DNA from: Lachnospiraceae bacterium AM93-12TA
GTDB lineage: Bacteria > Bacillota > Clostridia > Lachnospirales > Lachnospiraceae
Length of the DNA: 64,000 nt
NCBI GenBank assembly: GCA_027698105.1
Contig: JAQERH010000004.1
Coordinates: 41,944-105,943, forward strand
Direction of reading: 5' to 3'
In this document: positions 39,389 through 64,000 of the stretch, piece by piece
Layout: every line of letters starts with the position of its first letter
Numbering within the stretch: the first letter of the stretch is position 1
Program-made: the position numbers and the translations under genes
Notes under the pieces: model-generated
Database searches by the model: none
Told to the model about the DNA's origin: nothing
What the model saw: the letters and a program-made list of their open reading frames with translations, nothing else

Positions 39389-40021
39389 CTAAGATGTTGG
39401 AAGCAAGTTGTTCCACTCCAGCTGTTCCGCTCCAACTTCGGACTGTGTCAGTCCCCAGTTGGAAACTGCCAGAGAAGCGGCGTCTGCCTGAACTGCTTCT
39501 GCGTTAAAGTCTACAATAAATCGGCCTGTGCTGTAATTAGCTGCATGATCGTCGTTAGATACCTCCGGATTCAAAGTCAGACTATCCAGGAAGTTAGAAG
39601 TTTTACTTTTATCCTCTCCTTTTCCTTCCAGGATATAAGCGTAATAGTAAGTTCCACTGTTCTCTGGAATTTCAACCCAGTCATTGTCAAAACCGTCTGG
39701 ATAGTTCAGCGTAACCATCTCTGTTTTGAGATTTTTTGCTTCCTGTTCTGTCGTTTTATCCATCCAGTAAGTATCCATCTTCAGTCTGAGAACCAGCTCC
39801 GTATCTCCTGTATTCACGAAATACGGCTTTTTATCTACCGTCTCCCCCGGCAGAATCGTGTCTGCCGGGTTGAAGTCCTCTACCATGTCAATGGAACTGT
39901 TAGTTGTATGAAACGGGTTCACAATTGACTGTGTGTCTGAGTAGTAGGCCCATGTGGAGCTGAATCCGACTGCCATGGCGGAACCGGCCAGGATAACCGC
40001 TAATCGTTTATATAATTTCAT
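39389..40021 (-). CDS. BsaA/TasA-like SipW-dependent protein 4
   Basis: The 210-residue protein is the shortest member. It begins MKLYKRLAVILAGSAMAVGFSSTWAYYSDTQS and shows DMVEDFNPADTILPGE, FVNTGDTELVLRLKMDTYW and a final DFNAEAVQADAASLAVSNWG block. It follows member 5 by only two bases and so is translationally coupled to it. It is likely secreted. Confidence 0.86.
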   Translation of the reverse strand: MKLYKRLAVILAGSAMAVGFSSTWAYYSDTQSIVNPFHTTNSSIDMVEDFNPADTILPGETVDKKPYFVNTGDTELVLRLKMDTYWMDKTTEQEAKNLKTEMVTLNYPDGFDNDWVEIPENSGTYYYAYILEGKGEDKSKTSNFLDSLTLNPEVSNDDHAANYSTGRFIVDFNAEAVQADAASLAVSNWGLTQSEVGAEQLEWNNLLPTS

Positions 40022-40023
40022 AA

Positions 40024-45721: not shown

Positions 45722-45973
45722 CACTCCAACTCAACCTCCTCTTTTTCTATCTAAAATTCGTGATTTTTATCAATTTCTTTTTTTCAGTTTTTTGTCAAAA
45801 TTCTTAACTTTTCCTGAATTCCTCTTCATTTTATTCGATTGCCAATCATAAAACCAATCACAAAAAGTCTCATTTTTATTTTTTCTGTTTTTTAGTGTCA
45901 GCATACAATCTTTCTATCCCCGGTCGAACCGATTTACCTCCCATTTCTCCAGGCTGGCGTTAAAATTGCGTAA
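45722..45973. other. AT-rich leader upstream of the VWA gene
   Basis: No gene is seen. It should hold the promoter of the VWA-BsaA-SipW array; on the minus strand a TTGACA occurs at about 45791-45796 but I could not assign a matching -10 box with confidence. Confidence 0.4.
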
Positions 45974-49610: not shown

Positions 49611-49723
49611 GGTTCAGCGCTTCCCTTCTTTATTATAAATAATTAAATTAACCGCAATACTTGAAGTCTATCACATGAAAAGATAAAAAGCAAATTGCAG
49701 ATTTGATCGGAGGAGAGCGACCG

Positions 49724-49764
49724 GAAATTTTCCCTGTTCCAGTTGAAAGTCACAGGAAAATTTC
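49724..49764. repeat. Hairpin element C with shared loop core
   Basis: GAAATTTTCC pairs with GGAAAATTTC. The loop on the minus strand reads GTGACTTTCAACTGGAAC, matching the core of the family. Confidence 0.8.
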
Positions 49765-49802
49765 TGTTCGCCCCTTAGCCGCTGCAATCTGTGAAAAAAG
49801 AA

Positions 49803-49843
49803 GAGAGGAAAGTTTTCCGGCGACTAAGCTTTTGGTGGAGCAT
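49803..49843. repeat. Half element H (5' arm and loop only)
   Basis: These 41 bases differ at a single base from the 5' arm and loop of element G at 49959-49996 and its flank (GAGAGGAAAGTTTTCC, then GCGACTAAGC and TTTTGGTGGAGCAT), but the 3' arm is missing. Confidence 0.75.
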
Positions 49844-49952
49844 CTCCCTGCGTATTTATATAAAACACATTCAGCTGATATAAGTGATAATGGCGAGGCT
49901 TTCGCAACGAGGTTCGCGCTTATTTCCGCCATCCGGAGTCGCTCTGAGAGAA

Positions 49953-50016
49953 GGAGAGAGGAAAGTTTTCCAGCGACTAAGCTTTTGGTGGAGCATGGAA
50001 AACTTTCCCTCTCTCC
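49953..50016. repeat. Hairpin element G with shared loop core
   Basis: A 19-bp stem (GGAGAGAGGAAAGTTTTCC and its complement with one bulged C) encloses the loop AGCGACTAAGCTTTTGGTGGAGC. It stands 98 bases before the histidine kinase start; the 503-base gap 49611-50113 holds elements C, H and G and no gene. The open frame that runs through them is non-coding. Confidence 0.8.
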
Positions 50017-50113
50017 CTCTCCCCAACATCTTATCATCTTTTTTACTGAATTTTCCTGTAAAATCAGGTATAATAAACAGATTATCAATAGTTATGACAG
50101 GAGTGTATTCATT

Positions 50114-51226
50114 ATGAACAGACATGAGGAGAGGCTGCGGCATTTTCCGACTCCGAAAACCAGAGCGGCCAATATCGCCGTTACGCTGGCGTTTCTTTCT
50201 ATCGCTACCGCTGTCTCGTTTTTCTTTTTTACAAAAATGAAAGAACCTGCCTCCAGCATCAGCTTGTGCTACATTCTGGCTCTCTTTCTGACAGCCAGGT
50301 ATACAACAGGCTATTTTTATGGGGTTCTGTCAGCTTTGATCAGCGTAGGATGTGTGAATTTTCTCTTTACCTACCCGTATTTCGAGCTGAATTTTACCTT
50401 GAGCGGTTATCCTATGAGCTTTATTGCCATGTTTACGATTTCCACTATTACCAGCGCCCTGACCACGAATATCAAGGAGCAGGCCCGGATTATCTCGGAG
50501 CGTGAAAAGCTTTTAATGGATGCTGAAAAGGAAAAAATGAGGGCCAACCTGCTGCGGGCCATTTCCCATGACCTGCGTACTCCCCTCACCAGTATTATCG
50601 GTTCCAGCACCGTCTACCTGGAAAATGAAGCCAGCCTGGCAGAGGCGGAAAAAAAGGCCCTGGTAAGCCACATTTTAGAGGATTCCAACTGGCTGCTGAA
50701 TATGGTGGAAAACCTGCTTTCCGTCACCCGAATTAACAATGAAACGGCTAAGGTCAACACCTCCATGGAACCGGTGGAAGAAGTAATGGGAGAGGCTGTC
50801 AGCCGTCTGAAAAAACGAATTCCTGACGCGCCTGTCCAGGTCCGGGTTCCGGATGAAATTTTGATTATCCCTATGGACGCTATCTTAATCGAGCAGGTTC
50901 TCATTAATCTGATGGAAAATGCAGTGGTGCATTCCAAAAGCTCCAAACCGATTGAATGCTTTGCAGATTCATCACCGAACTTCGTCACCTTCCACGTAAG
51001 GGACTATGGAGTCGGCATTCCCCCGGAGAAGCTGAATACGATCTTTGACGGCTCCTCCTCCACTGCCAGCACATCCACGGACGGAAGAAAGGGCATGGGT
51101 ATCGGCCTTTCTATCTGCAAAACCATCATAAACGCCCATGGCGGCACCCTGGCTGCCCTCAACCACCCCGATGGGGCGGAATTTTATTTTACACTTCCAA
51201 AGGAGGACTCAAGCATTGTCTCATAA
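50114..51226 (+). CDS. KdpD-like sensor histidine kinase, N-terminal domains absent
   Basis: The 370-residue kinase has four hydrophobic segments (about 20-110, DUF4118-like), a HisKA domain with AISHDLRTPLTSIIGSS (phospho-His near residue 153), and a HATPase domain with LINLMENAVVHS (N box), VRDYGVGIPPEK (G1) and GRKGMGIGLSICKTI (G2). It corresponds to the C-terminal half of KdpD without the KdpD and universal-stress domains. ATG 50114 (MNRHEERLRHF) follows AGGAG. The longer reading from 49703 runs through the repeat elements. The stop overlaps the response regulator by 11 bases. No kdpFABC pump genes are adjacent. Confidence 0.92.
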   Translation: MNRHEERLRHFPTPKTRAANIAVTLAFLSIATAVSFFFFTKMKEPASSISLCYILALFLTARYTTGYFYGVLSALISVGCVNFLFTYPYFELNFTLSGYPMSFIAMFTISTITSALTTNIKEQARIISEREKLLMDAEKEKMRANLLRAISHDLRTPLTSIIGSSTVYLENEASLAEAEKKALVSHILEDSNWLLNMVENLLSVTRINNETAKVNTSMEPVEEVMGEAVSRLKKRIPDAPVQVRVPDEILIIPMDAILIEQVLINLMENAVVHSKSSKPIECFADSSPNFVTFHVRDYGVGIPPEKLNTIFDGSSSTASTSTDGRKGMGIGLSICKTIINAHGGTLAALNHPDGAEFYFTLPKEDSSIVS

Positions 51227-51926
51227 AATTTCTATTCTTCTGGTAGAAGATGAACCAAATATCTGCAACTTCATCACAGCCACCCTCTCTGCCCATGACT
51301 ACAGAGTGTCACAGGCCCACACAGGCAAGGATGCCCTGTCCATCATCACCTCCCAGTGCCCGGATCTGATCCTGCTGGATCTGGGACTCCCGGATATGGA
51401 CGGTATGGAAATTATCAGGCAGGTAAGAACATGGGCCAGTATCCCGATTATCGTCATTTCCGCCCGTATTCAGGAGCAGGAGAAGGTAAAAGCCCTGGAT
51501 CTGGGCGCAGACGACTACCTGACCAAACCCATCGGCACATCAGAGCTTCTGGCCCGCATCCGCACCGCCATGCGCCACAGCAACCGTCTGAATACAGATT
51601 CTCTTTTATACAAGCGCCCTTTTCATGCAAAGGATCTGGTTATTGATTTCGACAAACATATGGTTACCATCGGCGGACAGGAAACCCATCTGACCCAGAA
51701 TGAATTTAAGATTATCGCCCTACTGGCAAAAAATTCCGGCCGGGTGATGACCTACGACTCCATTATCGAGAATATCTGGGGCCCCTACGCAGACGGCGAC
51801 AACAGTATTCTCCGTGTCAATATGGCTCATATCCGCCGTAAAATAGAAAAAAATCCGGCAGAGCCGGAGTACATTTTTACGGAGATTGGGATTGGATATC
51901 GGATGATCGAGGATGAGATGAATTAG
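51216..51926 (+). CDS. kdpE: KdpE-like response regulator
   Basis: The 236-residue OmpR-family regulator has a receiver domain with the phospho-acceptor D55 in LILLDLGLPDMDG, the acidic pocket ED (11-12) and the Lys in LTKPIG, then a winged helix (about 135-230, TQNEFKIIALLAKNSGRVMT). TTG 51216 is chosen because AAAGGAGG lies nine bases upstream and the protein then starts MSHKISILLVEDEP. It overlaps the kinase gene, forming a two-component pair. Since potassium pump genes are not present, the output genes are unknown. Confidence 0.92.
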   Translation: MSHKISILLVEDEPNICNFITATLSAHDYRVSQAHTGKDALSIITSQCPDLILLDLGLPDMDGMEIIRQVRTWASIPIIVISARIQEQEKVKALDLGADDYLTKPIGTSELLARIRTAMRHSNRLNTDSLLYKRPFHAKDLVIDFDKHMVTIGGQETHLTQNEFKIIALLAKNSGRVMTYDSIIENIWGPYADGDNSILRVNMAHIRRKIEKNPAEPEYIFTEIGIGYRMIEDEMN

Positions 51927-52039: not shown

Positions 52040-52768
52040 TTATATTCCGTTGGACTGGTAAATATATAATGAGCAGTTTTCACCGTTAAATATCTGGACT
52101 CCCACATACAGAGGCTCATTATCCTGGGTGTATGTGACACTCTTGATAAACAGCAGGGAGGAACCTTTTTTTACCTCCAGCAGCTTTGCCTCAGATGCAG
52201 TGGCTCTGCAAAGTCCAATCCATTTTTCTGATGCTGAGACAGTTACCTTTGCTTTTTCATGAAGAAACGAGAATAATGAATTATTATCAAATGTTTCATC
52301 TAATAAAAATGCATATTTGGTTGGAAAATAGTTCTTTTCGATTGCAACTGGCTGTCCGTCTGCATATCTCAAACGTGAAATAGCAATCACCTTACTGTCT
52401 TTCTCAAGTCCCAGCATCTGTCTCGTCTTCTCATCCGGAGATACAAGGCAGTTTTCCAGCATCTTCCCGCCCGGTTCCATGCCCATATAGCGGCACATTT
52501 CCGTAAAGCTCTGAAGATCTTTCATATTTTTGGTGAATTTCGGCTTGGAAACAAAGGTTCCCTTTCCCTGTTTTTTCTCTACCAGACCCTTTTCCACTAA
52601 GCCGCTGACAGCGCTTCTTACTGTGATAATGCTGACTCCAAAAGTTTTTGCCATCTCGCTTTCAGACTGGAGTCTTTCACCTGGCTGATAAACGCCGCAC
52701 CGTATTTTTTCTTCTATCTGATTCATTAACTGTACGTATAATGGGGTCACTGTCTTTCCATTCAGCAT
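52040..52768 (-). CDS. GntR/HutC-family transcriptional regulator with UTRA domain
   Basis: The 242-residue protein has an N-terminal GntR winged helix (about 5-75, SESEMAKTFGVSIITVRSAVSGLVEKGLVEKKQGKGTFV) and a C-terminal UTRA ligand domain (about 90-240, VIAISRLRYADGQPVAIEKNYFP). Members such as FrlR and NagR bind phosphorylated sugars. It lies at the downstream end of a catabolic cluster on the same strand, 30 bases from a 50-bp palindrome, so self-regulation and control of the cluster are likely. Confidence 0.92.
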   Translation of the reverse strand: MLNGKTVTPLYVQLMNQIEEKIRCGVYQPGERLQSESEMAKTFGVSIITVRSAVSGLVEKGLVEKKQGKGTFVSKPKFTKNMKDLQSFTEMCRYMGMEPGGKMLENCLVSPDEKTRQMLGLEKDSKVIAISRLRYADGQPVAIEKNYFPTKYAFLLDETFDNNSLFSFLHEKAKVTVSASEKWIGLCRATASEAKLLEVKKGSSLLFIKSVTYTQDNEPLYVGVQIFNGENCSLYIYQSNGI

Positions 52769-52798
52769 AACTATCGTTCCTTTATCTTTTTTCTTTCA

Positions 52799-52848
52799 AT
52801 ATAATGTTATCGGCAAACATATTAATATGTTTGCCGATAACATTATAT
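52799..52848. promoter_or_regulatory. 50-bp perfect palindrome upstream of the GntR gene
   Basis: The arms (ATATAATGTTATCGGC and onward) are perfectly symmetric about the centre ATATTAATAT. The 12-mer ATATAATGTTAT in each arm recurs in the palindrome before the kinase gene at 63135. It is a probable GntR operator and could also act as a hairpin after yjbQ. Confidence 0.75.
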
Positions 52849-52881
52849 CTCAATCTTTCATAAAAGGCAAAGAATTTTTCC

Positions 52882-53313
52882 TTATTCTCCCATGATTTGA
52901 ACGGTATAATGCCTGATTTTAAGCCCGTCAAACTCTACAAAATAGATATCCTGGGCGCTTCCTCCTGCCATTTTTCCATCAGCGACCGGAAGCACGCAGT
53001 GGTTTCCGCACAGCATGGATTTTAAATGTCCCGGAGCATTGCCGCTGCAGGTTCCATAGCTGGGCAACATATGGGTATGGACATAGGGAGCGTCGGAAGG
53101 AACCAGACGTTCCAGGGTGAGCTCTATGTCTTTTTCTACGCAGGGAAGGCTTTCATTAATCATGATTCCTGTAGTCGTGTGAAGTGAAATCACAAAAACA
53201 ACTCCATTTTTCACTCCGCTTTCCTCTACGTCCTTCTTCACCTGGTCTGTAATCTTTACCATATGAAATTCTTCCTTGCTGGCAATCTCGTGGGTAAAGG
53301 ACTTAATAAGCAT
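52882..53313 (-). CDS. YjbQ-family protein (UPF0047)
   Basis: The 143-residue protein belongs to the YjbQ/UPF0047 family, whose members have weak thiamine-phosphate synthase or phosphatase-like activity in vitro. The HTTTG motif (SLHTTTGIMINES, near 50) and the histidine-bearing segment YVHTHMLPSYG with the downstream NHCVLPVADGKM are typical of the small trimeric fold. It overlaps the amidohydrolase gene by 11 bases and closes the operon. Its role in the pathway is unknown. Confidence 0.88.
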   Translation of the reverse strand: MLIKSFTHEIASKEEFHMVKITDQVKKDVEESGVKNGVVFVISLHTTTGIMINESLPCVEKDIELTLERLVPSDAPYVHTHMLPSYGTCSGNAPGHLKSMLCGNHCVLPVADGKMAGGSAQDIYFVEFDGLKIRHYTVQIMGE

Positions 53314-54169
53314 AGTCTCTCACCTCCATTCCCAGGAAGACTTTTGCATTGCCTCCCAGAATCTTATCTAACACGTCCCTTCGGATCGGCAGCTTCTCAA
53401 GCCCTTCCCTGGTTCTGACCTGCCGAAATCTTGGCAGATTGGATCCGAACATTACCTTATCCATCAGATTATTCTGGAGCCATCCCGGCGCCATGTTTTT
53501 CATAAAAATCTGATCATAGTAATTAGTCGGACTGTCCATAAATACCGTCGCTGTATCTGTATACACATTGGGGTATTTAAGCAGCATCATGGACATCTCA
53601 TCTACCCACGGCCATCCTAAATGAGCCAGACAAAATCTGAGAGACGGATACTCTACCGCGATATCTTCATATAAGATCGGTCTTCCGTACTTAGACGGAG
53701 AATCCGGCTCCCAGCTGAATCCGCTGTGGAACATCACCGGCTTTTCATACTGTACGCACAGCTTTAAAAGCGGCTCCAGCCTCTTATCGTCAGGATACAT
53801 CTGAAGATGGCTTAAATTCAGTTTCAGGCCTGAAAGCTTTAACTCTGAAAATGCCTGCTCCAGCTGCTCCTTGGCGTCACAGTTTCTGGGATCCACGCCT
53901 GCAAATCCGATAAACCGTTCCGGTTCCAAATCCACCAGCATTTTCACCTCTTCGTTGCTGATAATGGGACGCCCCATTTCTGCCGAATAGTCCTCTGCCA
54001 GAAGCACAGCCTTATCCACTCCCGCGTGATCCATCACAGCCATTACCTGGCTCATGGGAATAGGAGACGACTTATAGAGGCCGAAGGCCTGTTTTCTGAA
54101 TTCCACTTTCTCTTTATCTTCACAAATCGGCCCAAACAGAACCGGATGAACATGCATATCTATAACCAT
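53303..54169 (-). CDS. Amidohydrolase_2 family TIM-barrel hydrolase
   Basis: The 288-residue protein is an Amidohydrolase_2 member: MVIDMHVHPVLF has the first HxH pair, KPVMFHSGFSW the next histidine and CLAHLGWPWV a further one. In the last motif the usual metal or catalytic Asp (GSDxP) reads FGSNLPRFR, that is Asn. Family reactions are hydrolysis or decarboxylation of lactones and aromatic acids. It overlaps yjbQ by 11 bases and starts two bases after the PfkB kinase gene, so it belongs to one operon. Confidence 0.88.
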   Translation of the reverse strand: MVIDMHVHPVLFGPICEDKEKVEFRKQAFGLYKSSPIPMSQVMAVMDHAGVDKAVLLAEDYSAEMGRPIISNEEVKMLVDLEPERFIGFAGVDPRNCDAKEQLEQAFSELKLSGLKLNLSHLQMYPDDKRLEPLLKLCVQYEKPVMFHSGFSWEPDSPSKYGRPILYEDIAVEYPSLRFCLAHLGWPWVDEMSMMLLKYPNVYTDTATVFMDSPTNYYDQIFMKNMAPGWLQNNLMDKVMFGSNLPRFRQVRTREGLEKLPIRRDVLDKILGGNAKVFLGMEVRDYAY

Positions 54170-54171
54170 AT

Positions 54172-54984
54172 CTATTTTCTTCCTCTCTGATGGTAAGGTT
54201 CAAAAATGCTGACAATCTCGGCAGCTTTTCTGGCCCCCCGTTCCATGCACGCTTCAATGCTCTCTCCCCGGATGATTCCGGCCATAAAACCGGATCCATA
54301 AGAGTCCCCGGCTCCTACCGTATTCACCAGATGGTCTGATGTCAGGCATTTCTGACGATAGAAGTTCGTTCCGTCATAGGCCAGAGATCCGTTCTCTCCA
54401 AAGGTTGCCAAAAGGATCTCAGCTCCTCTCTCACATCCCATTTTCAGAAGCTCCCTTACCTCCTCCGTCTCTTCTTCAAATGAGAAGATACCGTAGTGGA
54501 TGGAGCTTAAAATCTTAGGTACGTCCGGATGCTGATATCTCTTGGAAAAATCAAAATATATCTTTGTCCCGCTTTTCTTGATCTCAGGAAGCAGATCTAC
54601 CACATTCCAGGACAGATCCGTGTGAATATAGTCCTGGCTGCATATGAAATCCATATCTTCCTTGGTGGGCCTGTAATCCGGCATGACGCCTCTGTCTACA
54701 GAATGGTGAACCCTGTCTTTTCCATTTAACAGCATTTCTATCACAGCTGTCTTTCCCCCGGGAACCACCTGCACATGAGAGGTATCCACCTGTCTGATTC
54801 TGCACTCTTCCAAAAGCTGTCTTCCATTTTCATCATCACCGACAGCTGTGACTACAGAAGGTTCTATTTCCTCCACCTGCTCCATCAGATTAAACAGAAG
54901 GTCAATGCCGTTTCCAGTCGGATACTGAATCCCCAGATTTTTATAAACGTCAATACATGTAAACCCTACAGCCGCAAATTTCAT
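54172..54984 (-). CDS. PfkB-family carbohydrate kinase (fructoselysine-kinase-like)
   Basis: The 270-residue ribokinase-fold kinase starts MKFAAVGFTCIDVYKNLG and has the anion-hole motif VNTVGAGDSYGSGFMAG with the catalytic Asp (near residue 230). The N-terminal layout resembles FrlD. It is the first of two PfkB kinases in this cluster; the other, at 62269-63135, is closer to FrlD. Two kinases argue for two phosphorylation steps or two substrates. Its substrate is presumably a sugar-amine or ketose. Confidence 0.85.
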   Translation of the reverse strand: MKFAAVGFTCIDVYKNLGIQYPTGNGIDLLFNLMEQVEEIEPSVVTAVGDDENGRQLLEECRIRQVDTSHVQVVPGGKTAVIEMLLNGKDRVHHSVDRGVMPDYRPTKEDMDFICSQDYIHTDLSWNVVDLLPEIKKSGTKIYFDFSKRYQHPDVPKILSSIHYGIFSFEEETEEVRELLKMGCERGAEILLATFGENGSLAYDGTNFYRQKCLTSDHLVNTVGAGDSYGSGFMAGIIRGESIEACMERGARKAAEIVSIFEPYHQRGRK

Positions 54985-55004
54985 ACCTTTTCTCCTATTC
55001 TCTC

Positions 55005-56534
55005 CTAAACGCCGCTGTTTAAGTCAGATAACAGGTGGAGATTATCCTTATTATCCTCATACAGCCTGCAGAACATCTCATAATATGGGCGGTACAGCTT
55101 TGTCCGCTTCTCGTCCGGTGTATATATTTTCTTAATATTTATAATATCCCTCAGCTCTTCAAATCCCTTAAAATGTCCGACTCCAATGGCTGCCATCAGG
55201 GCGTCCCCATAACATGCCCCGATAGTCTCTTCCCCAACTGCCACCGGAATGCCTGTAATATCAGCTGTCATCTGCATCCAGACAGGATTTTTTGTTCCTC
55301 CTCCAGCTGCTAAAATTCTGGTTGGCTCAATTCCCTTCTCCCTGAAAATTTCAATGTGCTGAAGAATGGAAAATACGATTCCCTCCAGCGCAGAACGGTA
55401 TAAATGCTTTCTGGTGTGATTCAGGGTAAGGCCAAACACAATTCCCCTGGCAGCCGGATCGTTAATCGGCGTTCTCTCTCCTGCAAAATAGGGAAGTGTC
55501 ACCAGTCCCTCACTTCCTGGCTCGATTTCCTCAATTCCCTCCATCATCTGCGCGAAAGAGCTTCCGGCCTCTGTTTCCTCTGCCTGCAGGCAGTCTGAAA
55601 ACAGGGTATCTCTGTACCAGTTCTGCAGGGTTCCCGCATTATTTGTACCTGCTGCTATGCTGTATCTGCCTGGAATGACGAAGCTGTTTCCCCGAACACG
55701 CTCATCAGTTACCATACGATCTGTACAGCAGTAGAAAAACAGGGAGGAACCAAACTGAACCATCAGATCTCCTGGTGACAGCACTCCTGTGCTGATGGCC
55801 TCTGCCGCTGAATCTCCTGTTCCCACAATCACAGGAGTTCCCGGAGCAAGGCCCGTTTCTGCTGCCGCCGCTTCTGTCACGCATCCGGCAATGTCTGTCA
55901 CTGCATGGCCCTCCGCCAGCTGAGAAGGACTGCAGATCGGAGCGCACATCTCCTCCCGAATGGTTCCGTCCATCTGGTAGAAAGGGCGAAACGATGCAAT
56001 GCCTAAAAATCGATCTATGGTGTAATTACCTGTCAGCTTTGCGGTGACATAAGAGGAGCCTGTCAAAAATTTATAGGCTTTCTTATAGACTTCCGGTTCG
56101 TTTTTCTTTAACCAGAGAATCTTAGCAGCCACATCTCCGGAGCAGATTGGGCGTCCGAATAATTCCTGAACCCGCTCTTCCCCATAATAGCTGGTCATCT
56201 CTTCCATTTCCTCTGTACACCTTGCATCGATTCCATACAGAATCGCCTTCCTAAGCGGCTTTCCCTCCTCATCCACGGGAAGGCAGTCTGCGCCCAGGGT
56301 GCTGGAGCCTACAGCCCCTATCTCTTCTGGAGAAATACCGCTTGTCTGAATCAGCTCCCTGGACAGCTTGCAGAAATCTCCCCACCAGATCTGTTCTGCA
56401 TCCTGTTCAAAATAGCCGGGAGCCGGGTTTTCCATGGTATGGGGCACTGACGCCCGTGCCTTTACTCTTCCGTCCTCTCCTACAAGCACCCCTTTGCTGG
56501 AAAAGGTTCCTATATCAATCCCCAAAAAATACAT
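55005..56534 (-). CDS. FGGY-family carbohydrate kinase (xylulokinase-like)
   Basis: The 509-residue kinase has the FGGY N-terminal phosphate loop GIDIGTFSSKGVLV, the VGSSTLGADCLPVD region, the catalytic block IVGTGDSAAEAISTG and the C-terminal ILAAGGGTKNPVWMQ ATP-binding segment. It resembles XylB. FGGY kinases phosphorylate pentoses, pentuloses or related polyols. It lies within the operon, downstream of BtpA. It adds a third phosphorylating enzyme to the cluster. Confidence 0.9.
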   Translation of the reverse strand: MYFLGIDIGTFSSKGVLVGEDGRVKARASVPHTMENPAPGYFEQDAEQIWWGDFCKLSRELIQTSGISPEEIGAVGSSTLGADCLPVDEEGKPLRKAILYGIDARCTEEMEEMTSYYGEERVQELFGRPICSGDVAAKILWLKKNEPEVYKKAYKFLTGSSYVTAKLTGNYTIDRFLGIASFRPFYQMDGTIREEMCAPICSPSQLAEGHAVTDIAGCVTEAAAAETGLAPGTPVIVGTGDSAAEAISTGVLSPGDLMVQFGSSLFFYCCTDRMVTDERVRGNSFVIPGRYSIAAGTNNAGTLQNWYRDTLFSDCLQAEETEAGSSFAQMMEGIEEIEPGSEGLVTLPYFAGERTPINDPAARGIVFGLTLNHTRKHLYRSALEGIVFSILQHIEIFREKGIEPTRILAAGGGTKNPVWMQMTADITGIPVAVGEETIGACYGDALMAAIGVGHFKGFEELRDIINIKKIYTPDEKRTKLYRPYYEMFCRLYEDNKDNLHLLSDLNSGV

Positions 56535-56551
56535 CTTATTCCCCCTCCCTG

Positions 56552-57358
56552 CTACAGGGTATTTCTGTATTCCTTTACTGCCTGCATAAATTCCTGTACT
56601 CTTGCTTTTTCTACAAAGTTTTCAAATTTTCCGTCCTTCTTAAATGCAGTTCCTACACATGCTCCGTCGCTCTGTGCAAGCTTTTCTGCAATATTTTCTT
56701 TCGTACAGCCTGTGTTGCAGAAAACAGGAATATCTCCTGCCACATTCTTCACGCGGGTTACCAGGCTGGAATCTGTCTCAGAACCTGCGCTTGCTCCTGA
56801 AACGCATAAACCGTCCGGGAAGCAGTGGAAAATCATGGATTTTGTGATTTTTTCCAGGCTTCTCTCTGCCATGTAAACATCAGATTCCGGATTTACCTTA
56901 AACAGCAGCTTGAGATCGTGAAGGCCTAAGGCAGCCTTTCTTCTCAATGTCTCAGGAATATTTGTATCAGTAATTCCGTTTTCTCCGATGTAAGCTCCTG
57001 TGAATGTACTTCTCACAAAGTTTGCTCCTGTGGCTGCCGCTAAATCAATGGTTGCCAGCGGATTGGAAACAATATTTACGCCAAAGGGAACTTTGATATC
57101 CCTTGACAGCTCTCCCACAATTCGTCCCATAGCTGCCACTGTAACATGGGATACCTTTTTTTCATAGGGCAGGCTGAACTCATTTGCAATCAGAATTCCA
57201 TCTACGCCGCCGTCCTGAAGCGCATTCAGCTCTTCTCTGGCCTTCTCGATGACAGCGTTCATAGAACCTCCAAATAATGGATCTCCCGGCAAAGCTCTCA
57301 GATGAAGCAGCGCAATAATCGGTTTCTCTACCTTAAACAGTTCTTTTGTCCACATCAT
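56552..57358 (-). CDS. BtpA/SgcQ family protein
   Basis: The 268-residue protein is a BtpA family TIM-barrel-like protein (PF03437): KPIIALLHLRALPGDPLFGG at the start, GGVDGILIANEFSLPY and the PFGVNIVSNPLATIDLAAATGANFVRS block are typical. SgcQ of the E. coli sgc sugar cluster belongs here. BtpA itself is tied to photosystem I stability in cyanobacteria, but in heterotrophs the family sits in sugar operons with unknown reactions. Its end is 17 bases before the FGGY gene, and its start shares one base with the stop of the epimerase gene. Confidence 0.9.
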   Translation of the reverse strand: MMWTKELFKVEKPIIALLHLRALPGDPLFGGSMNAVIEKAREELNALQDGGVDGILIANEFSLPYEKKVSHVTVAAMGRIVGELSRDIKVPFGVNIVSNPLATIDLAAATGANFVRSTFTGAYIGENGITDTNIPETLRRKAALGLHDLKLLFKVNPESDVYMAERSLEKITKSMIFHCFPDGLCVSGASAGSETDSSLVTRVKNVAGDIPVFCNTGCTKENIAEKLAQSDGACVGTAFKKDGKFENFVEKARVQEFMQAVKEYRNTL

Positions 57359-58197
57359 TAATCCTCCATATACATTCTTAAATTCTGCACATTTTTCTTA
57401 TCATAATAAAATGGATCCAGGTAGTAGGCAGGATCCGTCAGCTCCTGTGTAAAGTACCCTTCATATCCGTTCCTTATCATTACCTCTAAATCTTCTCTCA
57501 GGTTCCTGGTTCCCTGTCCCCATATGTAGTGTCCATAGGGGTTGCAGTCCTGAAAATGGGCATGGGCAATATTTTCTGTTCCAAATACGTCAAACCAGTC
57601 CTGAATGCTCTCTCCGGCAACAGACATGGCTGTAAGGTCTACCATAACCTTGAAGTTCGGATGGTTAACTCCGTCAAACAAACGCTTCATCTGGGAAAGG
57701 CTGTATCCAATCTTCGACTCCTGAGGACGCAGGGATTCAGCCACAATGGTGATATTGTTCTGTTCCGCCACCTCAGCCAGCATCTGATGCATCTCGATGG
57801 CTCTTTTAAGTCCTTCCTCTTCCGGCTCATCCCAGTAACCCCATCCTGAATTGGCTTCCATATATTTCGCTCCCAAAGCGGCGGCTAATTTAATTCCATT
57901 GGAAAAAAATCCAAAGGTCTTTTTTCTAAGCTCCGGCTCCTTTACGCCAAACTGATAGCCGAATCTGCAATTCTGCGGCGTAAATACAGGACAATGCAGG
58001 TTTCGCGACTGAAGCTTCTTTAAAATCGGCTCCGGATCCTGGTACTCATTGGGATCCAGCCACATTCCCTGGTGTCCTCCTAACAGCTCCACATTTTTGA
58101 TTCCCAGATCCACCATCCGATCCAGGAAGTAATCCAGGGAATACTGGAAATAATGCAGATTCAATACAGATAATCGTTCAAATGAAACCAGCTTCAT
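57358..58197 (-). CDS. Sugar phosphate isomerase/epimerase (FrlC-like) 1
   Basis: The 279-residue TIM-barrel protein of the xylose isomerase-like fold starts MKLVSFERLSVLNLHYFQYSL. Metal-ligand residues include the Glu in NITIVAESLRP, the Asp in MVDLTAM and the His in HAHFQD, then the last Glu in YFTQELTD. The layout is that of fructoselysine 3-epimerase FrlC. It is next to a second gene of the same family, so the two are probably sequential or specific for two epimers. Confidence 0.86.
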   Translation of the reverse strand: MKLVSFERLSVLNLHYFQYSLDYFLDRMVDLGIKNVELLGGHQGMWLDPNEYQDPEPILKKLQSRNLHCPVFTPQNCRFGYQFGVKEPELRKKTFGFFSNGIKLAAALGAKYMEANSGWGYWDEPEEEGLKRAIEMHQMLAEVAEQNNITIVAESLRPQESKIGYSLSQMKRLFDGVNHPNFKVMVDLTAMSVAGESIQDWFDVFGTENIAHAHFQDCNPYGHYIWGQGTRNLREDLEVMIRNGYEGYFTQELTDPAYYLDPFYYDKKNVQNLRMYMED

Positions 58198-58211
58198 ACT
58201 AAATCCTCCAT

Positions 58212-59045
58212 CTATTCAACAAACGCCTTCAGTGCCTTCCAGTTCTTTTCGTCTGCTTCCCTGGGGTTATCCAGATATCTTGGATCGTTTACAGAAAGGC
58301 TTAAATACCCTGTATAGCCATACTGTTCGATCCAGCCAAACTGGTCTTCCAGAGGCCTGAGTCCGTCTCCCCAGACCAGTCTGCCGCCAGGCCTTCCGTC
58401 TGTAAAGCGGATATGGCGCACCTTGTCTCCTAAAAGCTCAAACCAGTCCTTCATGCTCTCTCCTGCCATGCCTGCTGCCGTCAGATCGAGACATGCCTGT
58501 ACGTTTTTGCTGTTTACAGCGTCCAGCAGACTCTTCAGTTCTGTCAGCGTATTAAAAACAGGAGAATCTCCCGGACAAAGGGTCTCCACCGCAAGCAGGA
58601 TGCCGTGTTCAGAAGCTGTCTTTCCTAAGCAGGTAAGCCGGTCTACAGCCCGTTCAAAGATCCGTTCCTTTTCCTCATCCCTGAGGCCGCCGCCGCAGTT
58701 CACCACCATAAGCTTCGCCTCCGCCTGTTCTGCCGCCTCAATAGCCTTTTCAAAATAACCCATAGAATGTCTCGCCGCCGTCTCGTCCTGAGCACACAGG
58801 TTATAGTTGTACACCGTACACTCCGGGGAAAATGCAGCCAGCTTCATTCCGTAGAAATCCAGCTTTTCCTTCAGCTTTTTTACGTCCTCAAATCCATAAT
58901 CATCCAGCAGAAAGTGAGGTCTGGCGCACCAGAACTCGATTGACTGGACTCCCAGCTCCTGCTGGCTCTCCAGAAAATAGTCAAGGGGTCTGAACTTGTA
59001 ATGCATCCCCATTCCTGCGATCCGCTCTCTCTTTACAGGCTTCAT
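58212..59045 (-). CDS. Sugar phosphate isomerase/epimerase (FrlC-like) 2
   Basis: The 277-residue protein is a paralogue of the previous one: MKPVKRERIAGMGMHYKFRPL start, Glu in LLAVETLCPG, Asp in ACLDLTAAGMAGESMKDWF and His in RHIRFTDG. In the last motif the metal-ligand Glu found in copy 1 (TQELTD) reads LSLSVNDP, so it may lack one ligand. That would weaken metal catalysis. It starts after a hairpin that follows the transporter gene. Confidence 0.85.
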   Translation of the reverse strand: MKPVKRERIAGMGMHYKFRPLDYFLESQQELGVQSIEFWCARPHFLLDDYGFEDVKKLKEKLDFYGMKLAAFSPECTVYNYNLCAQDETAARHSMGYFEKAIEAAEQAEAKLMVVNCGGGLRDEEKERIFERAVDRLTCLGKTASEHGILLAVETLCPGDSPVFNTLTELKSLLDAVNSKNVQACLDLTAAGMAGESMKDWFELLGDKVRHIRFTDGRPGGRLVWGDGLRPLEDQFGWIEQYGYTGYLSLSVNDPRYLDNPREADEKNWKALKAFVE

Positions 59046-59070
59046 AGCTTTTCCTCCTTATAAGGTTTAA

Positions 59071-59103
59071 GGCCGGTTCTGTAAGAACATTTACAGACCG
59101 GCC
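59071..59103 (-). terminator. Intercistronic hairpin between transporter and epimerase genes
   Basis: GGCCGG and CTGTAA pair with TTACAG and CCGGCC across a six-base loop. On the minus strand no long T run follows, and the epimerase ribosome site stands just downstream, so it is probably a stability or attenuation hairpin within the operon. Confidence 0.6.
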
Positions 59104-59119
59104 TTTTACACTGCTTTTA

Positions 59120-60484
59120 TTATTTACTTTCATCCCAGACTGCATGGGGGTGTTTGTGCCACCATTTAAAAATGACAGGAACAATAATCAAAGCGGCCAG
59201 GTAAATCAGAATAGGAGCAACTGCTGCAATCCAGTTTCCCTGTACGCAGGCTACCGGTACAGCTGCCAAAGCAAAAATCTCAATAATCGACTCAATCGGT
59301 GTTACGATGGCTGCATCGTCCAGTGTACAGCTCTTGTTCTCCGGATCCACGATTCTGAGAAGCGCCATTCCAATGGCTGTTACGCCAGTAGAATATCCAT
59401 ATACGTAAATGCCTCTCTCAAACCACTCCTGTTTTAACAGGCGAGGAGCAATTACTGTAAAGTGGAATACAACCCATGCGATACCGAACAGCATCAAAAG
59501 TCCAAATGGTACTGCATACTCAATAATAACCGGAATTTTAATAGATGCTACTCCGAAAAATACTAAGAAATCAGTTGCGCAGCTTCCCATACGGGAAATA
59601 ATCCGGTTGTCCACATACTTGTCTGCCTTAATTCCCTTTAACAGGAAGTGGAACACAATGGCTACCAGGAAACCTACGGAAAAGCTTGGAACGCCCAGTC
59701 CAGTTGCCGCCTGAATTGCGTTGGTAAGAAGGTAACCAATTCCTGTCGGAATCAGAATCAGCATTAAGTGCCATGCAAGAGGATCAATCGCCATAGGAGA
59801 AACTGTTTCCTCGCCAAGCACCGGTCTCTTTCCTTCCTGAATCAGTCCTGTTCTCATATCCTCAGGAAGCTGGCTGAAGTCCTTAACAAACTTTGTATAA
59901 TTTTTCTTGGTTCCGATTTTAATGAGAATAATTCCGCCGAAAATTCCTGTTAAAATTCCAACGGTTGCAGAAGTCATACCCAGGTCTGTAGCATCTGCCC
60001 AGCCCAGAGAATCAAGGGTTGCTCCCAGAGCTGCCGCTGTACCGTGTCCTCCCTGGAAACCTGCCGGAATCAGCATTCCGAATGCCGGGTTTAATTCTGG
60101 CTCAATCACTTTCAGAACCAGCATGGAGAAGATAATCGGTACTGCATACTGAAATGCCCATCCGATATTTCTGAAGCAGTAATAGCTTCCGATTCTGTCA
60201 AAGTTGGTCTTCCATCCGCCGCTGCTGAAGTTAAATCCTCTCAGTCCGATGGATACGAACACTGCGATAATTAAAAGTCCTGCATAGGAACCGAACTGTG
60301 AAGAAAAATTGATGATTCCAAATCCGTTCTGGCCCATGGCAAGTCCAATGAAACCTGCTAACAGGCTGACAGGAACGAATAAGCTCTGCAGTATCTTAAT
60401 CTTCTCTCTCAATAATTTTGCTGCAAATAAGAATATTCCTGCCCACATAAAATCTATCAGCATTGAGTAAGCATTAAATTCCAT
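59120..60484 (-). CDS. ESS family sodium symporter (GltS-like)
   Basis: The 454-residue membrane protein belongs to the glutamate:sodium symporter family (GltS, ESS). About ten to eleven hydrophobic helices are visible, with the two typical re-entrant-like motifs including GFQGGHGTAAALGATLDSLG and the symmetry-related YSTGVTAIGMALLR. GltS carries glutamate with sodium. Here it heads an operon of sugar-phosphate type enzymes, so the substrate may be a sugar-modified amino acid. The inference rests on context. An AT-rich palindrome precedes it. Confidence 0.88.
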   Translation of the reverse strand: MEFNAYSMLIDFMWAGIFLFAAKLLREKIKILQSLFVPVSLLAGFIGLAMGQNGFGIINFSSQFGSYAGLLIIAVFVSIGLRGFNFSSGGWKTNFDRIGSYYCFRNIGWAFQYAVPIIFSMLVLKVIEPELNPAFGMLIPAGFQGGHGTAAALGATLDSLGWADATDLGMTSATVGILTGIFGGIILIKIGTKKNYTKFVKDFSQLPEDMRTGLIQEGKRPVLGEETVSPMAIDPLAWHLMLILIPTGIGYLLTNAIQAATGLGVPSFSVGFLVAIVFHFLLKGIKADKYVDNRIISRMGSCATDFLVFFGVASIKIPVIIEYAVPFGLLMLFGIAWVVFHFTVIAPRLLKQEWFERGIYVYGYSTGVTAIGMALLRIVDPENKSCTLDDAAIVTPIESIIEIFALAAVPVACVQGNWIAAVAPILIYLAALIIVPVIFKWWHKHPHAVWDESK

Positions 60485-60538
60485 GTTCTCTCTCCCCTCT
60501 TAATTTTTATTTTCCTTTTCCCAGAATATTTTCTTTTG

Positions 60539-60562
60539 ATATAATATTTTATAATATTATAT
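60539..60562. promoter_or_regulatory. AT-rich inverted repeat before the transporter operon
   Basis: ATATAATATT and AATATTATAT are perfect complements around TTAT, 55 bases before the transporter start. It resembles the palindromes before the other units of the cluster and is a probable GntR operator. Confidence 0.6.
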
Positions 60563-60580
60563 TTGATTGTATTATACTAT

Positions 60581-60994
60581 TTATTTATGCAGTAAGACAG
60601 CAGCTTCTTTTCTCACCATCTCCAGCTCTTCTGCCGTCATATCACAGTAGGTGCTGTTCTGCTCTGTCGTTCCGGCATCCTGAACATAGATAAGCTTTGT
60701 GTCCTTTTCTGTAATGGTATTAAACCAGGTTTCCTGAGGAACATTGTAAACCTTTCCAGGCTCCATTAAAGTCAGGTCAATCTGGAACCCCTCATTTTCC
60801 CTGGATGCTGTCAGCAGAACTGCCTTGCCCTGTACAAGAACAAACTGCTCGTCTGTCTCGTGATGAACCTCTAAATACTTGATTTCCCCTATGTCATTAT
60901 TAGGCTTCCAGTTTTTTATGCACATTACCCAATGTCCATTGTTGTAAACGCACTCAATTCCTTCACCCTGGTATTCAAAAACCTCCGCTTTCAA
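60581..60994 (-). CDS. Cupin domain protein
   Basis: The 137-residue protein has a single cupin barrel: EVHHETDEQFVLVQGKAVLL in motif 1 and PGKVYNVPQETWFNTITEKD in motif 2. The first motif keeps the HH-x-x-x-E/Q pattern for metal binding. The N-terminal part (EYQGEGIECVYNNGHWVMCIKNW) resembles small cupins linked to sugar isomerase roles. It has its own AT-rich upstream palindrome and lies between the transporter and the deglycase. It may be an isomerase or anomerase for the pathway; this is inferred. Confidence 0.8.
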   Translation of the reverse strand: MKAEVFEYQGEGIECVYNNGHWVMCIKNWKPNNDIGEIKYLEVHHETDEQFVLVQGKAVLLTASRENEGFQIDLTLMEPGKVYNVPQETWFNTITEKDTKLIYVQDAGTTEQNSTYCDMTAEELEMVRKEAAVLLHK

Positions 60995-61063
60995 ATGATT
61001 CCCTCCAATCTTCTTCTTTACATACCTTTTGTTCTTGTTTTATCGGCCGATTGCTTATGTCAT

Positions 61064-61077
61064 TATAATATATTATA
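61064..61077. promoter_or_regulatory. AT-rich palindrome before the cupin gene
   Basis: TATAATATATTATA is perfectly symmetric, 70 bases before the cupin start, and is followed at a short distance by a TATCGGC (61041-61047) also found in the arms of the GntR-proximal palindrome. Confidence 0.5.
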
Positions 61078-61191
61078 TATCGTTATGCTGTCAATAGCTT
61101 TTTACGCTTTTTTTAGCTATTTTTTACAATTTACTTTTCTTTCAGCTGAACAGTTATGATAAAACTGCTTATCCCAATCTCTGTTTTTATC

Positions 61192-61218
61192 AAAAAAGGC
61201 AGCAGAACTGCCTTTTTT
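61192..61218 (-). terminator. Terminator after the deglycase gene
   Basis: AAAAAAGGCAG and CTGCCTTTTTT form a perfect 11-bp stem; on the minus strand the stem ends in TTTTTT. It marks the end of the frlD-frlB unit. Confidence 0.9.
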
Positions 61219-61261
61219 CAGCTCTGCCGCCTCTTTAATTTTCAATCCAGAGTACTTCTGC

Positions 61262-62239
61262 CTAGTACTCTACCTTCCACATATAACGTCTCTCATCCAT
61301 AGAATGGCCTCTCACCTCTGCCATCTGAGCTACGTAGTATCTCTCAATCGGGATCATGACAACCGGGTTAAAGAACTCTGCTACTTCCGGCGCAATTCTG
61401 CCCTGGTTTAACTCCTTAAAATCAATGATAATATAATTCTCTGCATACTGCTTCAGGAACTTCAGACATCTCTCGTCTAAGGCTCTTGTTCTTCCTTCGC
61501 TCATTAAGAGTACCATCGGAAGCTGTTTATCTGTAGTCTCGAACGGTCCGTGGAAATACTCTCCTGTGTGCAGGCATACGGCATGCTTCCACTGCATTTC
61601 CATGAAATGGCAGCAGCACATGGAATAAGCCACGCCATAGTTAGGGCCTGATGCCAGCACATAAAAGATCGGCTCATCTTTATAGGTGTCAGCCCACTTC
61701 TGAGCGATTGGAAGAGCCTTCTCTTTTCCCTCTGCAACGATCCGATCAATCTCTGCATAAGCTGCCATAGCCTTGTCATAGTTTTCGTAGTTTTCAAACT
61801 GCTTTAATAACTCAAATCCAATACGGAGCGCATTCGCCTGGTTAGAATCGCTGTATACCTGGTCGTCTCCATTGGAGTAGGTTACGACATACTGGCCTAC
61901 CTGTGCCATACCTGTCTCCATAGAACCTGTCATGGCAATTGTAACTGCGCCTGCAGCATTGGCTGTCTTCACTGCCTCTACTGTCTCCGGTGTTGCCTTT
62001 AAGGAGCAGATCACAGCCACACATCTGTTGTCTAACTCCTTTGGTGTAGCATGTACAAACTCATTACTTGTGTAGGTAGTAGCGCCAAATGTCTTCGCCT
62101 CGCTCTGAAGCAGGTAAAGGCCTGGGAAAATCGCTGCCTTAGAACCGCCGCAGGCAACAAAATATACATGCTTTAAACCGCCTGCCTGGTCCATCTTTAC
62201 CTTAATTTCGCTTACAATCTCTTTTACTGTCTTTGTCAT
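61262..62239 (-). CDS. frlB: SIS-domain deglycase, FrlB-like
   Basis: The 325-residue protein has two SIS (sugar isomerase) domains and resembles FrlB, which cleaves fructoselysine-6-phosphate to glucose-6-phosphate and lysine. Matching parts are VYFVACGGSKAA near the start, the AVICSLKATPETVEAVK block, the HTGEYFHGPFE segment, which carries the conserved Glu and His of the FrlB-type active site, and the MDERRYMWKVEY C terminus (FrlB ends similarly DERRYY-VEY). The amine half released here need not be lysine. It is preceded by the kinase gene 29 bases away. Confidence 0.85.
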   Translation of the reverse strand: MTKTVKEIVSEIKVKMDQAGGLKHVYFVACGGSKAAIFPGLYLLQSEAKTFGATTYTSNEFVHATPKELDNRCVAVICSLKATPETVEAVKTANAAGAVTIAMTGSMETGMAQVGQYVVTYSNGDDQVYSDSNQANALRIGFELLKQFENYENYDKAMAAYAEIDRIVAEGKEKALPIAQKWADTYKDEPIFYVLASGPNYGVAYSMCCCHFMEMQWKHAVCLHTGEYFHGPFETTDKQLPMVLLMSEGRTRALDERCLKFLKQYAENYIIIDFKELNQGRIAPEVAEFFNPVVMIPIERYYVAQMAEVRGHSMDERRYMWKVEY

Positions 62240-62268
62240 CTCTGTATCCTCCTCATTATAATAAATAT

Positions 62269-63135
62269 TTACTGAATCTCTTTTCCATGGCCAAATGCGC
62301 CCTGAACCATACAGGTCTTAGCGGCAAAGGCTGCGCCTGCGGCCATCGCCTCTTTAATAAAGGTTTCCTTTAATTCCTCTGCCTTCTCCGGATGCTCTGC
62401 GTTCTTTTCCAGATTTCCTACATAAGAAAGTAAAAAAGCTGTTGCAAAGGAATCTCCCGCCCCCAATGTGTCTACTGCTTCCACTAATTTCGGCTCCTGC
62501 GTATAAAAGTTTTTTCCATTATACAATACAGAACCATAGCTGCCTCTCGTGGCTATCACCATCGGACATCCTGCTTTGTAAATCGTGCGGCAAATCTCTT
62601 TGGCTTCCGCCTCTGGCACAGATCCACAGGATAAAAAGGCATATTTCACATACGGAGCTACCTGCGCTACTTTTTCTTTTTCCTTCCACTGTCCAGAAAA
62701 ATCATAGGAAACTGATAAACCTGCCTCAGCCAATTTAGGAAGCTGACTGTCAAAATGGCTGTTATTGCTCGTGTGAATATGGGAAAACTCCTTGACGTAT
62801 TCCATATCATCCGCATCCAGAATTACTGGATATTCCTTTGCAATTCCGCCTTTATTACTTCCTAAAAATACTCTGTCTCCATCCACTAAAGTCACTCTGG
62901 CATATCCGTTTTCTCCATCATGCTGTCTGCAACGCTCATGTTTTACTTCCAGTTTATCCAGAGTAGCCAGTATGTGAGCCGCTACTTCATCACGTCCGAA
63001 TGTTCCCATATAGGAGGCATCCGCTCCTAGCATTTTTGCATAAACAGCAAAATTTAACGCCTGTCCTCCTGGAAACATGGTATTAAGATGAATGTATTTA
63101 TCACATACGTTATCACCAATACCAATAACTTTCAT
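62269..63135 (-). CDS. frlD: PfkB-family kinase, FrlD-like
   Basis: The 288-residue kinase has the N-terminal signature GIGDNVCDKYIHLNTMFPGG and QALNFAVYAKMLG of fructoselysine 6-kinase, and the C-terminal DTLGAGDSFATAFLLSY with the catalytic Asp. FrlD phosphorylates fructoselysine at C6 before FrlB cleaves it. It forms a two-gene unit with the FrlB-like gene, which supports the function in Amadori-type compound catabolism. The exact sugar-amine is unknown. An AT-rich palindrome stands upstream. Confidence 0.86.
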   Translation of the reverse strand: MKVIGIGDNVCDKYIHLNTMFPGGQALNFAVYAKMLGADASYMGTFGRDEVAAHILATLDKLEVKHERCRQHDGENGYARVTLVDGDRVFLGSNKGGIAKEYPVILDADDMEYVKEFSHIHTSNNSHFDSQLPKLAEAGLSVSYDFSGQWKEKEKVAQVAPYVKYAFLSCGSVPEAEAKEICRTIYKAGCPMVIATRGSYGSVLYNGKNFYTQEPKLVEAVDTLGAGDSFATAFLLSYVGNLEKNAEHPEKAEELKETFIKEAMAAGAAFAAKTCMVQGAFGHGKEIQ

Positions 63136-63154: not shown

Positions 63155-63186
63155 TATATTATTATATAATGTTATAATATAATATA
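63155..63186. promoter_or_regulatory. AT-rich inverted repeat before the frlD-like gene
   Basis: TATATTAT and ATAATATA flank an inner TATAATGTTATA, in part matching ATATAATGTTAT in the palindrome before the GntR gene. It is 20 bases from the start and is a probable operator. Confidence 0.6.
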
Positions 63187-63221
63187 AGTTCATATTCTCT
63201 AATTTGTCAAGACCTTTTTGC

Positions 63222-63472: not shown

Positions 63473-63559
63473 CTACTTACCGCCATCCAGCCATTTGCAA
63501 ATGAGATGGCTAATCACACCTGCCGCAACAGCGATAATCAAAGATAGAAGAATTTCCAC
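63473..63559 (-). CDS. Small hydrophobic peptide, possible type I toxin (28 aa)
   Basis: The GTG-started peptide VEILLSLIIAVAAGV then ISHLICKWLDGGK has one hydrophobic helix and a short charged tail, a pattern seen in type I toxins and small membrane peptides of clostridia. GGGAGG lies a few bases before the GTG. The leader contains TTACCGCCTCC, of which TTACCGCC can pair with GGCGGTAA at the 3' end of the coding region and CGCCTCC with the ribosome site. An extended -10 (TGGTATAAT, 63608-63616 on the minus strand) precedes it. I did not find a clear antisense RNA gene. Confidence 0.65.
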   Translation of the reverse strand: MEILLSLIIAVAAGVISHLICKWLDGGK

Positions 63560-63782: not shown

Positions 63783-63854
63783 AGCGCGAGACGGGATTCG
63801 AACCCGCGACCCTCGCCTTGGCAAGGCGATACTCCACCACTGAGCCACTCGCGC
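63783..63854 (-). tRNA. tRNA-Gly (GCC)
   Basis: The minus strand folds to a cloverleaf: acceptor GCGCGAG/CTCGCGC, D arm GCTC...GAGT, anticodon stem TCGCC/GGCGA with loop TTGCCAA, and T arm GCGGG-TTCGAAT-CCCGT. The anticodon GCC is at 63820-63822. The CCA end is not encoded. It lies 119 bases after the 23S rRNA 3' end, with no 5S rRNA between. Confidence 0.97.
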
Positions 63855-63973
63855 ATTTGAGATAATCATTTATCTCTCTATTTAATTTTTGAGGTTTATC
63901 TGATACATACCCTCAAAACCACACATTGAATCTACTCTCTATCTTTCCATCCTTCTTCTCTACCCAACCTCTT

Positions 63974-64000
63974 GGTTAAGCCCTCGACCGATTAGTAACA
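63974..64000 (-). rRNA. 23S ribosomal RNA, 3' end (partial)
   Basis: The minus strand reads TACTAATCGGTCGAGG then GCTTAACC, the universal 3'-terminal sequence of 23S rRNA (terminal helix with the 5' GGUUAAG). The rest of the gene lies beyond the window. The mature end may extend one or two bases past 63974. Confidence 0.9.

Follow-up and report, generated by a model that had tools for sequence, protein, structure and literature searches.

Amadori compounds are frequent in heated food, and few bacterial routes for their use are known. In Salmonella, the use of fructose-asparagine depends on the fra locus (fraR, fraBDAE), described in the available text of its report as encoding a deglycase, a kinase, a Dcu-type transporter, an asparaginase and a GntR regulator (PMC4072780). 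Homologs of Fra in users of fructose-asparagine have been reported mainly from Clostridia, as far as the accessible part of that source goes (PMC10100877). In E. coli, fructoselysine and psicoselysine are used through the frl genes (frlABCD and frlR). The stretch analysed here, referred to as the window, comprises 64,000 nucleotides of Lachnospiraceae bacterium AM93-12TA (GCA_027698105.1, contig JAQERH010000004.1, positions 41,944 to 105,943). Its list of open reading frames (ORFs) contains twelve ORFs between 52040 and 63135, all on the minus strand, a span also given by an earlier reading made from the letters alone (the sequence-only reading). With good confidence these genes can be regarded as an Amadori-type cluster of the Fra/Frl type; the cluster is probably a locus for Amadori compounds, the best candidates being fructosyl derivatives of acidic amino acids (fructose-aspartate or fructose-glutamate).

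Gene content and the predicted SIS deglycase

The genes follow one another from 63135 down to 52040 in this order:

62269..63135, minus strand: PfkB1, FrlD/FraD-like sugar kinase of the SIS-side group (PF00294 90.5 bits; NCBIfam fructoselysine 6-kinase 161.5 bits, cut-off 247; kinase tree)
61262..62239, minus strand: SIS deglycase, FraB/FrlB type (262.2 bits to 9otj, 243.5 to 3eua; Glu214 and His230 kept)
60581..60994, minus strand: cupin-like protein (TTG start in the ORF list; no Pfam family)
59120..60484, minus strand: ESS-type (sodium/glutamate symporter-like) transporter (PF03616 in relatives)
58212..59045, minus strand: EPI1, FrlC-like epimerase (PF01261 120.2 bits; fructoselysine 3-epimerase model 122 bits, cut-off 305)
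57358..58197, minus strand: EPI2, FrlC-like epimerase (PF01261 99.9 bits; fructoselysine 3-epimerase model 86.7 bits, cut-off 305)
56552..57358, minus strand: BtpA/SgcQ family TIM-barrel protein (PF03437 261.5 bits, gathering cut-off 30)
55005..56534, minus strand: FGGY kinase, nearest the xylulokinase model (PF00370 and PF02782; XylB model 320.3 bits, cut-off 380.25)
54172..54984, minus strand: PfkB2, FrlD-like kinase of the amidohydrolase-side group (NCBIfam fructoselysine 6-kinase 238.1 bits, cut-off 247; kinase tree)
53303..54169, minus strand: amidohydrolase (AH), Amidohydro_2 family, ACMSD/LigJ/LigW fold (PF04909 106.7 bits, gathering cut-off 26.4; model and fold matches)
52882..53313, minus strand: YjbQ (UPF0047), overlapping AH by 11 bases (PF01894 114.9 bits, gathering cut-off 27)
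52040..52768, minus strand: GntR/UTRA regulator, FrlR-like (PF00392 and PF07702; 28.8% identity to E. coli FrlR over 215 residues)

Pfam directly supports ten of the twelve genes (PfkB twice, SIS, AP_endonuc_2 twice, BtpA, FGGY, Amidohydro_2, UPF0047, and GntR with UTRA), and the names of the ESS transporter and the cupin are derived from relatives, so that the one-strand cluster of these families described in the sequence-only reading is borne out. The ESS protein gave no Pfam match even up to E=5; its relative in locus L043, 90% identical to it, matches PF03616 at 59.8 bits, and many listed homologs carry this family. The cupin-like protein likewise had no Pfam match, and among 120 listed of its 206 homologs four are named cupin and two carry 'cupin superfamily' from a source. 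The predicted model of BtpA is nearest to TIM barrels acting on phosphorylated compounds. Intergenic gaps are below 100 bases, with the exception of 267 bases before the cupin gene and 113 bases before gntR, and two gene pairs overlap (EPI2/BtpA and AH/YjbQ).

The SIS protein scored 262.2 bits against the PDB series 9otj/9otl/9ou5 and 243.5 bits against 3eua, a putative fructose-aminoacid-6-phosphate deglycase, with E. coli FrlB being more distant (27% identity by BLASTP). By sequence it is thus nearer to the FraB-like PDB series than to FrlB. The entries of this series are labelled 'SIS domain protein' and are taken to be Salmonella FraB because in one variant chain Glu214 is aligned with an Ala. 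This catalytic glutamate of FraB is present in the window protein, and both Glu214 and His230 are kept in E. coli FrlB and in all 79 distinct SIS relatives of at least 100 bits, a count which excludes 11 weaker SIS proteins and in which a gene shared by overlapping loci may be entered twice under different starts. For His230 we assume a functional role, no statement of which was found in the available parts of the FraB literature. The E214A variant of FraB is described in the accessible text of two reports as catalytically inactive (PMC12755824, PMC10100877).

Conservation across loci and genomes

Relatives of the cluster were collected in one scan of species genomes with an AH alignment, in which 215 pattern matches yielded 185 relatives, the best 80 of which were kept. 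The 80 AH loci owe their selection to AH and are not independent of one another (kinases in L076–L079 are nearly identical), and genes were counted by tblastn, the gene caller having missed genes (it found AH in 69 and YjbQ in 57 loci). YjbQ lies within 1 kilobase (kb) of AH in all 80, and within 5 kb of AH are found PfkB (73 of 80), an epimerase (41), GntR (41) and SIS (39). Over the whole stretches a SIS match was obtained in 49 loci (39 of at least 100 bits and 10 weaker). BtpA and FGGY are each present in 14 of the 80 loci.

Locus L005 holds counterparts of all twelve genes at 31–83% identity in a divergent layout, with both epimerases nearest to EPI1 and one of them cut by the stretch end. 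In L128, from C. fessum (genome G003), the eight genes from PfkB1 to FGGY stand in the order of the window with GntR before PfkB1, giving nine counterparts, and PfkB2-AH-YjbQ is located on a different contig from these nine. On the strength of L005 and L128 the grouping exceeds chance. Eleven strongly diverged counterparts (25–59% identity) occur in L144 with a Dcu transporter and no ESS, and L043 holds PfkB1, SIS, GntR, cupin, AH, YjbQ, PfkB2 and ESS together. In relatives with a rearranged layout, the cupin and the FGGY-BtpA pair are also part of the set.

AH and SIS also co-occur at the level of whole genomes, as judged from genomes listed without completeness values. Within 397 genomes of the family of G003, SIS was found in 39 (E up to 1e-50), AH in 18 (same limit) and both in 12, the expectation being 1.8 (hypergeometric p 1.8e-9, in a test which ignores kinship, as does the one below), and in 10 of these 12 both genes are no more than 7 kb apart on one contig. 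The closest AH in this family is not above 82% identity. A second family of 197 genomes, that of G417, gave SIS in 10 (limit 1e-40), AH in six (limit 1e-50) and both in six (expected 0.3; p 2.8e-9). Of the 31 loci with no SIS in the stretch, the genomes of 19 were examined and 18 have a SIS of at least 160 bits elsewhere. The same threshold is reached in 28 of a set of 33 AH genomes.

A tree was constructed of 118 kinases of 230–330 residues, with duplicate sequences removed and with L081–L127, L129, L130 and L138 left out as short or duplicate stretches. All 48 kinases encoded at most 400 bases from AH or YjbQ but further than that from SIS fell into one group of 70 rows (support 100/99), which includes 18 others and four SIS-side rows; of the 21 SIS-side kinases, 17 (including PfkB1) belong to a separate group of 30 rows (support 100/99). 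The tree carries a long-branch warning, with E. coli FrlD being among such branches. PfkB2 is closer to the FrlD model than PfkB1 (238.1 versus 161.5 bits), and in 22 of the 80 AH loci a SIS scoring 100 bits or more is accompanied by a PfkB2-like kinase and a PfkB1-like kinase is absent, which indicates that PfkB2 may itself feed a deglycase. PfkB2, AH and YjbQ form a conserved group with no counterpart trio in the E. coli frl operon. They are the newer part of the cluster, and the sequence-only reading had overlooked them as a group of their own. The AH-YjbQ pair also occurs in one metagenome-assembled genome of Chloroflexota (L074). It should also be noted that in the Paenibacillaceae loci L035 and L036 (also L023) four consecutive FrlC-like epimerase genes follow AH-YjbQ.

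The trio can be put forward, at slightly less than even chances, as an undescribed module, widespread in Bacillota, for a new Amadori step, either a second phosphorylate-and-cleave route or the repair of cyclised or phosphorylated side forms. In a title-level search of open-licence literature no publication title was recognised as covering the whole cluster or the trio, a result which does not establish absence. A role of AH-YjbQ as a deglycase replacing SIS was considered and is weakened by the 22 loci above and by the presence of SIS in most AH genomes examined. The fusions P0040 (AH-YjbQ) and P0188 (ESS-PfkB) were rejected as evidence of linkage, as their breaks lie inside domains and they look like deletions or assembly joins.

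For AH, the model and fold matches point to the ACMSD/LigJ/LigW branch, the fold list including probable 2-pyrone-4,6-dicarboxylate hydrolases, and the nearest chain is the uncharacterised BB4693. This branch has Asp at the end of strand 8, as seen in a LigW-type chain, where it presumably has a metal role, whereas Asn takes the place of this canonical ACMSD/LigW-type Asp in the window AH and in 113 of the 118 rows with a residue at that position. The function of YjbQ is called unknown in the available parts of the literature, in which a cited title attributes thiamin phosphate synthase activity to the family (PMC7954711, PMC4731195).

Proposed pathway and its alternatives

The transporters of related loci give clues to the substrate. 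The permeases that neighbour AH-YjbQ in L073 and L077 have FrlA as their best-scoring model (563.1 and 530.7 bits, the next model giving 200.8 and 188.8) and remain below the FrlA cut-off of 800. DcuA/DcuB-type transporters are found in L024 and L144, and Salmonella FraA is described in the available text as homologous to the Dcu family (PMC4072780). Permease matches among the 80 AH loci were amino-acid-ABC-like in 20, FrlA-like in 17 and sugar-ABC-like in 16, the probe names 'amino-acid ABC', 'sugar ABC' and 'RbsC' being our reading of the sequences, with an oligopeptide-type binding protein in L044 and a BCCT transporter in L058. Together with the ESS type in the window, these transporters suggest, with moderate confidence, an acidic amino acid part of the substrate; the acidic amine guessed in the sequence-only reading is well supported by the Dcu transporters of the two related clusters. 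As AH and YjbQ stay constant while transporters vary, they probably act on a feature common to the compounds.

The families, the catalytic residues kept in the deglycase, the recurring gene grouping and the co-occurrence across genomes are observed directly; from them we infer a substrate, an order of steps, a position of phosphorylation and a job for each extra enzyme. The compound would be imported by the ESS-type symporter, C3 epimers would be converted by the FrlC-like epimerases, and the sugar would be phosphorylated at O6 by PfkB1, PfkB2 or both, after which the SIS deglycase would release glucose 6-phosphate and the amino acid. GntR/UTRA would control expression. The conserved grouping places the trio, the cupin and the FGGY-BtpA pair in what would be the same pathway, where they may handle forms beyond the plain kinase-deglycase route, such as other epimers or sugars, cyclised lactone or lactam forms and toxic phosphorylated side products; AH, YjbQ, the cupin and BtpA would form a second phosphorylation branch or deal with side forms. 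The Amadori-type catabolism proposed in the sequence-only reading is well supported by the FraB/FrlB-type SIS with Glu214, the co-occurrence of AH and SIS and the FrlA-like and Dcu transporters of relatives.

Several observations weigh against a Fra/Frl-type locus. The curated cut-offs are not reached for FrlB (106.4 of 430 bits), FrlC (122 for EPI1 and 86.7 for EPI2, of 305) or FrlD (161.5 for PfkB1 and 238.1 for PfkB2, of 247). No SIS was found in the stretch searched in 31 of the 80 AH loci, one genome of the 19 examined (L030) has none of at least 160 bits elsewhere, and SIS is missing in six of the 18 AH genomes of the G003 family at the limit used and in five of the set of 33 at 160 bits, four of these five having a weaker SIS. 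Neither the fra nor the frl route, as known, has a step for AH, YjbQ, the cupin, BtpA or FGGY, and no match to an asparaginase family was obtained for any of the twelve genes.

The cluster might instead be a set of adjacent, separate sugar operons with no common pathway, namely a fra-like unit (PfkB1-SIS-cupin-ESS-epimerases), FGGY-BtpA for another ketose and PfkB2-AH-YjbQ. The separate contigs of C. fessum and the low counts of BtpA and FGGY (14 of 80 each) are consistent with this, but clusters with other arrangements (L005, L144) bring the units together again and the deglycase is strongly enriched in AH genomes, and we consider such an arrangement unlikely. The families of SIS, PfkB and TIM-barrel epimerases are broad, and the SIS protein has weak matches to GlmS (47.8 bits) and NagB-II (40.7 bits), in line with a protein that isomerises or deaminates an amino sugar or other sugar amine, with the cluster serving that compound and not an Amadori one. 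Its scores to the FrlB model (106.4 bits) and the deglycase structures (243.5–262.2 bits) are far higher, however, and its relatives are accompanied by FrlA-like and Dcu transporters, which makes this explanation improbable.

A narrower form of the Fra/Frl-type reading draws on opine and Amadori lactone chemistry and has AH, with HyuAB in relatives, opening Amadori lactone or lactam rings before phosphorylation and deglycation, for example in fructosyl-pyroglutamate or opine-like spiro-lactones. Hydantoinase/oxoprolinase A and B genes (Hyu A and Hyu B) stand beside the SIS gene in L001, L002, L137 and L139, which suggests a ring-opening step in related clusters; each occurs in eight of the 80 AH loci, and the probable 2-pyrone-4,6-dicarboxylate hydrolases in the AH fold list would also fit. 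However, the window cluster has no Hyu gene, and the persistence of AH and YjbQ with varying transporters speaks against a role confined to a single amino acid. Ring opening as the main role of AH is thus retained as a rival only and given a small probability.

Neighbouring features and comparison with known systems

Three candidate regulatory features were located around the cluster:

63181..63210, minus strand: promoter-like site upstream of PfkB1, 11/12 (consensus match only)
61067..61094, minus strand: promoter-like site upstream of the cupin gene, 11/12 (consensus match only)
52799..52848, no strand assigned: perfect 50-base palindrome between yjbQ and gntR, candidate operator

In total 32 promoter-like sites were found against 19.5 (standard deviation 4.9) in shuffles. 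The palindrome could be a GntR operator or a terminator. A shared operator was rejected, as the one 12-mer common to the regions upstream of PfkB1 and gntR was judged near chance for A+T-rich DNA. Upstream of PfkB1 lies a short hydrophobic ORF (63473–63559, minus strand) which we take to resemble small type I toxin-antitoxin peptides. A tRNA-Gly, the sole Rfam match there, lies near the window edge (63783–64000, minus strand), preceded by what is presumably a 23S rRNA 3′ end. On the other side of the cluster, 49703–51926 (plus strand) encodes a KdpD-like sensor kinase (DUF4118, HisKA, HATPase_c) and a response regulator, with no kdpABC-like ORF seen beside them in the ORF lists. A run of secreted proteins, two matching camelysin (PF12389), lies at 34443–45724 (minus strand) together with the protein that comes after it, which has 1659 residues and carries VWA and DUF7604 domains, and two neighbouring near-identical ORFs of 389 residues lie at 31755–32924 and 33114–34283 (plus strand), the first with no Pfam match. 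At 5721–7697 (plus strand) a single ORF fuses an ABC permease with a solute-binding protein (BPD_transp_1 and SBP_bac_8).

If the proposed pathway is true, many Bacillota have a richer Amadori pathway than fra or frl; YjbQ, the BB4693-like amidohydrolase, BtpA and the Pfam-less cupin family would gain a testable substrate class, the roles of YjbQ and BtpA becoming directly testable. If the reading of the trio is true, the YjbQ family would for the first time be assigned to a physiological pathway.

The sequence-only reading had compared the cluster with E. coli frl, which does lack the extra partners; the Salmonella fra locus is a closer match. The E. coli stretch contains the genes frlA, B, C, D and R, and the operon has no AH, YjbQ, cupin, BtpA or FGGY. 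By BLASTP the window homologs are 27% identical to FrlB, 27 and 25% to FrlC, 29 and 30% to FrlD and 29% to FrlR. With no FrlA-like permease and with scores below the NCBIfam equivalog cut-offs for FrlB, FrlC and FrlD, the cluster is not an E. coli frl operon proper. The fructoselysine genes of Intestinimonas AF211 share a kinase, a fructosamine deglycase and a transporter with the window but differ in having an ABC importer, and neither 'amidohydrolase' nor 'yjbq' occurs in the available main text of that report (PMC4697335). Common to the window and Salmonella fra are a deglycase with the catalytic Glu214, a PfkB-type kinase and a GntR regulator, and L024 and L144, two related clusters, have a Dcu transporter like FraA. 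In place of FraA the cluster of the window has an ESS-type transporter, it contains no asparaginase FraE, and it is thus not a fra operon proper; beyond the fra set it also has another PfkB kinase, a pair of epimerases, AH, YjbQ, a cupin, BtpA and FGGY. Part of the cluster may already be known from the Clostridia that use fructose-asparagine. The new pathway proposed in the sequence-only reading is therefore supported in part and not wholly undescribed, as the PfkB-SIS core is a relative of the known fra and frl systems: the core is a variant of their chemistry, and the conserved trio is the real news.

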